Assembly (NCBI GenBank): GCA_937928555.1
Contig: CALFWR010000014.1
Span: forward strand, 1 to 64,000
Direction: 5' to 3'
From: an uncultured Pirellulaceae bacterium
GTDB lineage: Bacteria; Planctomycetota; Planctomycetia; Pirellulales; Pirellulaceae
Length of the DNA stretch: 64,000 nucleotides
Below, in pieces: positions 22,814 through 61,067 of this stretch. The notes below the pieces were generated by a model that was not told where the DNA came from, made no database searches, and saw nothing but the letters and a program-made list of their open reading frames with translations. The translations under genes were made by a program, and so were the position numbers. Numbering within the stretch: position 1 is the stretch's first letter; each line of letters opens with the position of its first letter.

Positions 22814-22834
22814 TCTTTCCTCTTGTTATTTACC

Positions 22835-23020
22835 CCGGATTATTCACGAGGCGTGGGCGTCAGAATCAGTTCCGACATTGATCGGTTACTCTGATGCGCT
22901 GAAACGATCGCTGCGGCTTTCACCTACCGAATGATTCACATTTCTTGTTGAAATTCAGTTTTCCCCTTGCTCCTGTTGGCCAAACGTAGAATTAACGCCC
23001 GTCGTCGTGAATAATCCGGG
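22835..23020 (+). mobile_element. MITE-like element, copy A
   Basis: 186 bp; TIR CCCGGATTATTCACGA / TCGTGAATAATCCGGG; flanked by the perfect 5-bp direct repeat TTTAC (22830-22834 and 23021-23025). Confidence 0.9.
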
Positions 23021-44591: not shown

Positions 44592-44773
44592 CAATGCTGC
44601 CGGGCTGGTGCTCGTTCGACTGCCTCGCGCCCGCTTCATTAGCTTGTATTTAATCTGGACCGGAACTATTTACGACGTGAGTAATCCGGGCTGAATTTTG
44701 CAGAAATTATCGCAAAGCTTTCGCTGGTTCCAGGGAAGAGTTTGGCGGTACAAATGCATAAATCGGTGATGCC

Positions 44774-46434: not shown

Positions 46435-47046
46435 ATGCAACGAAAAAACATCTCGTCAGGCGCTCCTTGGGAAGAAATCGTGGGCTATTCCCGCGCGGTG
46501 CAGGTTGGTTCCTTTCTGGAAATCGCAGGCACAGTCGCGACAGATGCCAACGGTGAAATTCCCGCTGACGATGTCGCTGCACAGACAAAGATGATTCTGG
46601 AAAAGATCAAAAGCGTCATCAACCCGGATTATTCACGACGACGGGCGTTGATTCTACGTCTGGCCAACAGAAGCAAAGGAAAAGCTGAATTTCAACAAGA
46701 AACTTGAGCCATCCGGTAGATGAAAACCACAGCGATCGTTCCGTCGCATCAGAACCGCGGATCACTATCGGAACTGATTCTGACGCCCACGCCTCGTGAA
46801 TAATTCGGGATCAAAGAAGCCGGCGGTTCGCTTGGTGACGTCGTGCGAACACGGATCTTTGTCGCCGACATCACCCAGTGGGAATCCATCGGACGCGTTC
46901 ACGGACAGTTTTTCGGTGCCATCAAACCGGCATCGACGATGGTCGAAGTCAGCCGCCTGGTGGACGACCGCTATTTGGTGGAAGTTGAAGCTTCGGCGAT
47001 TCTTTCAGGTGCAGACAAAGACTCAGTCGGTAAAACCCGAGATTAG
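46435..47046 (+). pseudogene. RidA/YjgF-family gene interrupted by MITE-like copy B
   Basis: MQRKNISSGAPWEEIVGYSRAVQVGSFLEIAGTVATDANGEIPADDVAAQTKMILEKIKSVI | element | KEAGGSLGDVVRTRIFVADITQWESIGRVHGQFFGAIKPASTMVEVSRLVDDRYLVEVEASAIL; excising the element plus one ATCAA restores the frame exactly. Confidence 0.92.
46623..46809 (-). mobile_element. MITE-like element, copy B (inserted in RidA gene)
   Basis: 187 bp with CCCGGATTATTCACGA TIRs; perfect 5-bp direct repeats ATCAA at 46618-46622 and 46810-46814. Confidence 0.95.
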
Positions 47047-56246: not shown

Positions 56247-56433
56247 CCCCGATTATTCACGAGGCGTGGGCGTCAGAATCAGTTCCAACAGTGATCCACG
56301 ACTCTGATGCGATGAAACGATCGCTGTGGTTTTCATCTACCGGATGATTCAAATTTCTTGTTGAAATTCAGCTTTTCCCCTGCTCCTGTTGGCCAGACGT
56401 AGAATCAACGCCCGTCGTTGTGAATAATCCGGG
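56247..56433 (+). mobile_element. MITE-like element, copy C
   Basis: Near-identical to copies A, B and D; flanks CTTAC / CTTAT (4 of 5 match). Confidence 0.88.
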
Positions 56434-60880: not shown

Positions 60881-61067
60881 CCCGGATTATTCGCGACGAC
60901 GGGCGTTGATTCTACGTCTGGCCAACAGGAGCAAGGGAAAAGCTGAATTTCAACAAGAATCGCGAATCATCCGATAGATGAAATCCACAGCGATCGTTTC
61001 ATCGCATCAGAGCCGCGGATCACTGTCGGAACTGATTCTGACGCCCACGGCTCGTGAATAATTCGGG
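60881..61067 (-). mobile_element. MITE-like element, copy D
   Basis: 187 bp, near-identical to copies A-C; flanks TTAAG / GTAAA are not a clean duplication. Confidence 0.88.

Follow-up and report, generated by a model that had tools for sequence, protein, structure and literature searches.

The window, i.e., the whole stretch of 64,000 nucleotides analysed here, carries on its forward strand a gene of the RidA superfamily that is broken in two by an inserted element. The broken gene as a whole spans 46435-47046 (+), the element itself occupying only 46623-46809. The 5' part (46435..46622, +) comprises 62 codons plus 2 bases, and the 3' part (46815..47046, +) lies in the same frame since the 187 bp of the element and the 5 bp of duplicated target add up to 192 bp, which is divisible by three. 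Because this net gain preserves the frame, the inactivation of the gene is due to the stop codons of the element, which cut off the 3' part, and not to a frameshift. From the ATG at 46435, the truncated ORF runs through the 62 native codons into the element and ends at a TGA (46705-46707), giving a predicted product of 90 aa (46435..46707, +), namely the 62 native codons followed by 28 residues from the junction codon and the element. When the element and one ATCAA are removed in silico, the remaining 420 nt read through without interruption as 139 codons and a stop, and the restored protein matches PF01042 (Ribonuc_L-PSP) over profile positions 8-120 of 121 (E=3.6e-29); among solved structures its best match is 3i7t (E=2e-30), with the junction ungapped. 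On the strength of the letters alone, the earlier note had described a Rid-family gene interrupted by a 187-bp MITE-like element with exact borders and a perfect 5-bp ATCAA duplication, and truncated at about 62 native codons with an element-encoded tail; the restored frame and the 90-aa ORF bear out the interruption and the truncation, and the same borders and duplications of this type recur in hundreds of family members, as described below.

Intact homologues of the gene were compared from the Bacteroidota, other bacteria, two congeners (G027 and G024) and two other genomes of the order; about 20 of them, at 46-67% identity, run ungapped over the junction. An assembly split into 168 contigs and harbouring hundreds of similar repeats could conceivably join unrelated loci at a repeat, but here ATCAA stands on both sides of the element and the frame resumes beyond it at the correct codon, ungapped against these homologues, so that a misjoin can be dismissed with near certainty. 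The restored frame is as such a full-length member of the RidA/YjgF-YER057c-UK114 family (PF01042), from which the gene as it stands differs in being split after residue 62. A further difference lies in the alignment column of the VEVSRL arginine, where the homologues vary, and the label "RidA deaminase" is therefore too strong: the gene would be better described as encoding a Rid-superfamily protein, for which the archetypal imine deaminase activity is not assured. The earlier note had also proposed looking for an empty site in sister strains and for a second intact RidA gene. Regarding the former, the homologues are intact and ungapped at the junction but the search for a syntenic empty site in a sister species yielded none, since the genes flanking the interrupted gene, i.e., rhomboid, cyclase-like and M20 peptidase genes, were not found beside the homologues, the congeners with the closest RidA (L113, L116) having non-matching flanking genes. 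Regarding the latter, the sole other PF01042 gene of the assembly (C14:76061-76465, outside the window) is intact but a distant paralogue (41 bits).

Whether the gene is truly dead deserves consideration, as both halves are open in the same frame and a 67-aa ORF starts from a GTG at 46843, so that the C-terminal part might be re-expressed or the fusion product might have a role. The element nonetheless carries stops in every frame, the break after residue 62 divides the Rid domain, a promoter-like site was not found, and the 90-aa product matches PF01042 at residues 15-63 only, covering profile positions 8-57 of 121; continued function thus seems very unlikely and the truncated Rid protein is presumably inactive. 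An in-frame protein insertion of the kind known for Rickettsia palindromic elements, which the 192 bp would permit, is ruled out by these same stops. The gene is broken by a MITE, a disruption that is in itself ordinary.

The element (46623..46809, +) reads CCCGGATTATTCACGA...TCGTGAATAATTCGGG and has no spanning ORF of its own. Its left terminal inverted repeat, CCCGGATTATTCACGA (46623..46638, +), recurs unchanged at the ends of IS1380-family elements from other genomes, and its right terminal inverted repeat, CCCGAATTATTCACGA (46794..46809, -), carries one mismatch, the 16-bp ends being complementary at 15/16 positions. The target-site duplication, ATCAA, lies immediately outside on both sides (46618..46622 and 46810..46814). 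These ends are not a chance occurrence because the terminal repeat pattern (≤3 mismatches) is present 9 times in the window vs 0.43 expected, and the exact 16-nt end 792 times in the genome vs 0 for the reversed control. Both subfamily consensuses (see below) contain stops in each of the six frames and no transposase is encoded; with a length below 500 bp, terminal inverted repeats, a target-site duplication and many dispersed, mainly intergenic copies, the element has the attributes of a MITE. A lone sequence resembling the terminal repeat, CCCGGATTACTCACGT, is present at 44675-44690 (-), 3' of a secY-like gene, where no partner end was found.

Besides the copy in the Rid gene, the window contains three other full family-1 copies, at 22834..23020 (-; target-site duplication GTAAA on its own strand), 56247..56433 (-) and 60881..61067 (+), the latter two with degraded duplications, i.e., four in total. 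The census beyond the window relies on pattern counts in the draft assembly (4.87 Mb, 168 contigs, 91% complete) and on profile searches of a 464-kb sample (20 stretches plus the window). A 21-nt right-end pattern, found about once per copy (≤2 mismatches), occurs 667 times in the draft genome. The 464-kb sample contains 80 copies, 57 of them near full, which make up 2.7% of its bases; extrapolated genome-wide, this gives about 600 near-full copies, or about 840 with fragments. A similarity search of the genome yielded, among the candidates scored, at least 40 near-full copies that are 89-95% identical. At least two subfamilies can be discerned (L044-L063 and the window), with 25-30 bp at both ends in common and different interiors, family 2 being represented by 17 near-full copies in the 464 kb. 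Among 27 congeners, the 21-nt pattern is found 0 times in 26 and 4 times in G015, a sister species with ~120-bp relatives bearing the same end motifs at very low copy number (L066 and L067). The family is thus present in bulk in only one of the 28 species of the genus searched, and its size is unusual. Of note, some copies appear to have inserted into others (G000:C65:16945-17321, G000:C15:15871-16249 and G000:C85:10478-10856), a full copy lying between partial matches to query positions ~1-130 and 126-187.

Prokaryotic MITEs, e.g., Correia, ERIC, Chunjie and QMITE, are typically below 500 bp, lie mostly between genes and show direct repeats where copies are younger, and Chunjie-1 is known to disrupt a phosphate uptake operon (PMC10969869). 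The present family resembles them in length, terminal inverted repeats, direct repeats, mostly intergenic location and occasional gene disruption. It differs in abundance, the 711 ERIC copies of Photorhabdus being cited as a high example with other MITEs at tens to ~150 copies (PMC10969869), and as much as 2% being given as the share that MITEs may reach in a bacterial genome (PMC3281130); with ~600-700 near-full copies and 2.7% of the sample, it stands at the upper end of the abundances given in these papers. In the literature searched on IS1380 MITEs and on MITEs of Planctomycetes, this family is not described, nor is any IS1380-driven MITE family of comparable size. As such, it is a new and very abundant MITE family, of a known kind of element.

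With an unbiased view of the insertions provided by the 464-kb sample, an exact 5-bp duplication borders 25 of 54 full copies, with the consensus NTNAN (T at position 2 in 25/25, A at position 4 in 24/25), to which the ATCAA at the Rid gene conforms. Only 15 of 50 insertions (30%) lie in stop-free frames of at least 200 codons, vs 88% of random NTNAN sites (p=6e-21); because insertions are depleted in long frames, the copy in the Rid gene belongs to a minority class. Such an intergenic bias, together with hundreds of copies and a stable fold (z=-4.6), is also what would be seen if the repeats were a structured RNA or REP/ERIC-like regulatory repeats with a function for the host, their mobility being secondary. 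The fold, though, derives largely from the inverted ends, compensatory change on both sides affects 1 of 52 pairs (24 copies), and Rfam gives no match for the repeat; moreover, exact duplications and insertion into a coding gene are marks of transposition, the repeats occur in bulk in one species only, and purifying selection predicts the intergenic bias equally well. A host function as the primary explanation is accordingly regarded as very unlikely.

Regarding the age of the insertion, the earlier note had suggested recent mobilisation, which stands in part. On the one hand, the duplication is perfect and the two gene halves are still open. On the other hand, the nearest sampled relative of the copy in the Rid gene is 5.3% away, with a terminal branch of 0.022 close to the family median of 0.027. 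For the family as a whole, copies differ by a median of 5.3% from the consensus and 4.8% from the nearest sampled neighbour, and with values of about 5% for both the burst is not fresh by this measure. The term "recent" is only partly supported and the insertion is better taken as "not yet decayed".

As for the mobiliser, the exact 16-nt end was found in 20 of 397 genomes of the order, with 1-20 copies each outside the source genome, and complete IS elements with these ends could be delineated: a 1775-bp element (L165:671-2445) with the 5-bp duplication ATTAG, 1682-bp elements at L162:949-2630 and L163 with the 4-bp duplications CTAA and CTAG respectively, and an element at L177:6-1690 with the 4-bp duplication CTAG. 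The transposases of three distinct elements with these ends belong to the IS1380 family (NF033539, above cut-off, E ~1e-83), and further ends of the L165 type adjoin TTGAG and TTGAA, both of the form NTNAN. Since the 16-bp ends match complete IS1380 elements, of which one is bordered by a 5-bp NTNAN duplication, the MITE was probably mobilised in trans by an IS1380 transposase; IS1247, also of the IS1380 family, has 16/13-bp ends and 5-bp direct repeats (PMC3281130). The MITE thus shares with elements of this family in related genomes ends identical over 16-18 bp and a 5-bp duplication, but differs in having no transposase and, beyond the terminal 13-18 bp, no resemblance to any IS1380 element seen. 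It also counts against the model that half of the copies have no exact duplication and that other IS1380 elements with the same ends give 4-bp duplications. Eukaryotic piggyBac elements are related to IS1380. They resemble the MITE in CCC-type ends and TTAA-like targets and differ in being eukaryotic and in using a 4-bp TTAA target instead of the 5-bp NTNAN. In a published analysis, IS1380 serves as the outgroup for piggyBac elements (PMC10813416).

In the source genome, a 91%-complete draft, the search for an intact IS1380 transposase with these ends turned up relics only, so that the pairing of MITE and IS1380 is drawn solely from end sequence and duplication class. Directly adjoining one MITE copy is a decayed C-terminus of an IS1380 transposase with two stops (L187:178-387; G000 C83). 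At C96, an IS1380-type end of ~113 bp (L043:1107-1235) closely resembles, by eye, the end of an element in the congener G009 (L191), an end which itself adjoins IS1380 transposase fragments. The latter element (L191:1003-1760; G009 C3), in which the transposase matches skip residues ~93-320 and no right end was located, has an internal deletion and represents a type of element from which a MITE could arise. The C96 locus shows nesting: an IS4-type element sits inside the IS1380-type end and is in turn broken by a MITE where the contig stops. The IS4-family transposase of this locus, or one like it, might then be credited with moving the MITE, as its ORF adjoins the identical 13-bp end CCCGGATTATTCA at L043:1107. 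Yet relatives of this IS4 have the ends GAATGGCACT and 11-bp duplications, so that both ends and duplication size fail to fit, GAATGGCACT is also present at the IS4 boundary in L043, and CCCGGATTATTCA is part of the separate IS1380-type end similar to that of G009; mobilisation by IS4 is on these grounds highly improbable. A site resembling the terminal repeat and adjoining IS4 in G004 (L072) lies inside a coding gene and was set aside as a chance match.

Returning to IS1380, the reading favoured with high confidence is that IS1380 mobilised a non-autonomous MITE in trans, that this MITE was amplified within one lineage, and that one of its copies inactivated the Rid gene. Judging from the shared ends, a DDE transposase of the IS1380 family would recognise the CCCGGATTATTCACGA ends and move the MITE in trans, probably by cut-and-paste, insertion at NTNAN generating the 5-bp duplication. 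Amplification to ~600-700 near-complete copies would have followed the split from the sampled congeners, with copies mostly tolerated in intergenic positions and one inserting after codon 62 of the RidA-superfamily gene, whose inactivation the stops of the element would bring about. The transposase itself may by now be lost, decayed, or missing from the 91%-complete draft. A bolder statement, i.e., that of a burst among the largest known in bacteria (~670 copies in two or more subfamilies, taking up 2.7% of the genome), confined to a single species that is probably a planctomycete to judge from its gene content, driven by an IS1380-family transposase now lost or relic, and left as a fossil burst inactivating scattered genes, may be right or wrong with about equal probability. 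The insertion in the Rid gene fixes the borders and the target rule of the MITE, by which hundreds of copies become recognisable, and a burst in one species with its probable driver traced to IS1380 relics offers a natural setting in which to ask how the amplification of non-autonomous elements proceeds and why it ceases.

The source genome also contains one unrelated IS1380 element, at C119 (L041), with the ends CCTAGTCC. It was considered as a partner of the MITE and rejected, its ends, CCTAGTCCTTAA, being different from those of the MITE. At C30 (L042:1608-2531; G000), a frame of 308 codons adjoining an IS1380 relic is, by eye, a candidate resembling REP-associated (Y1/RAYT-type) transposases.
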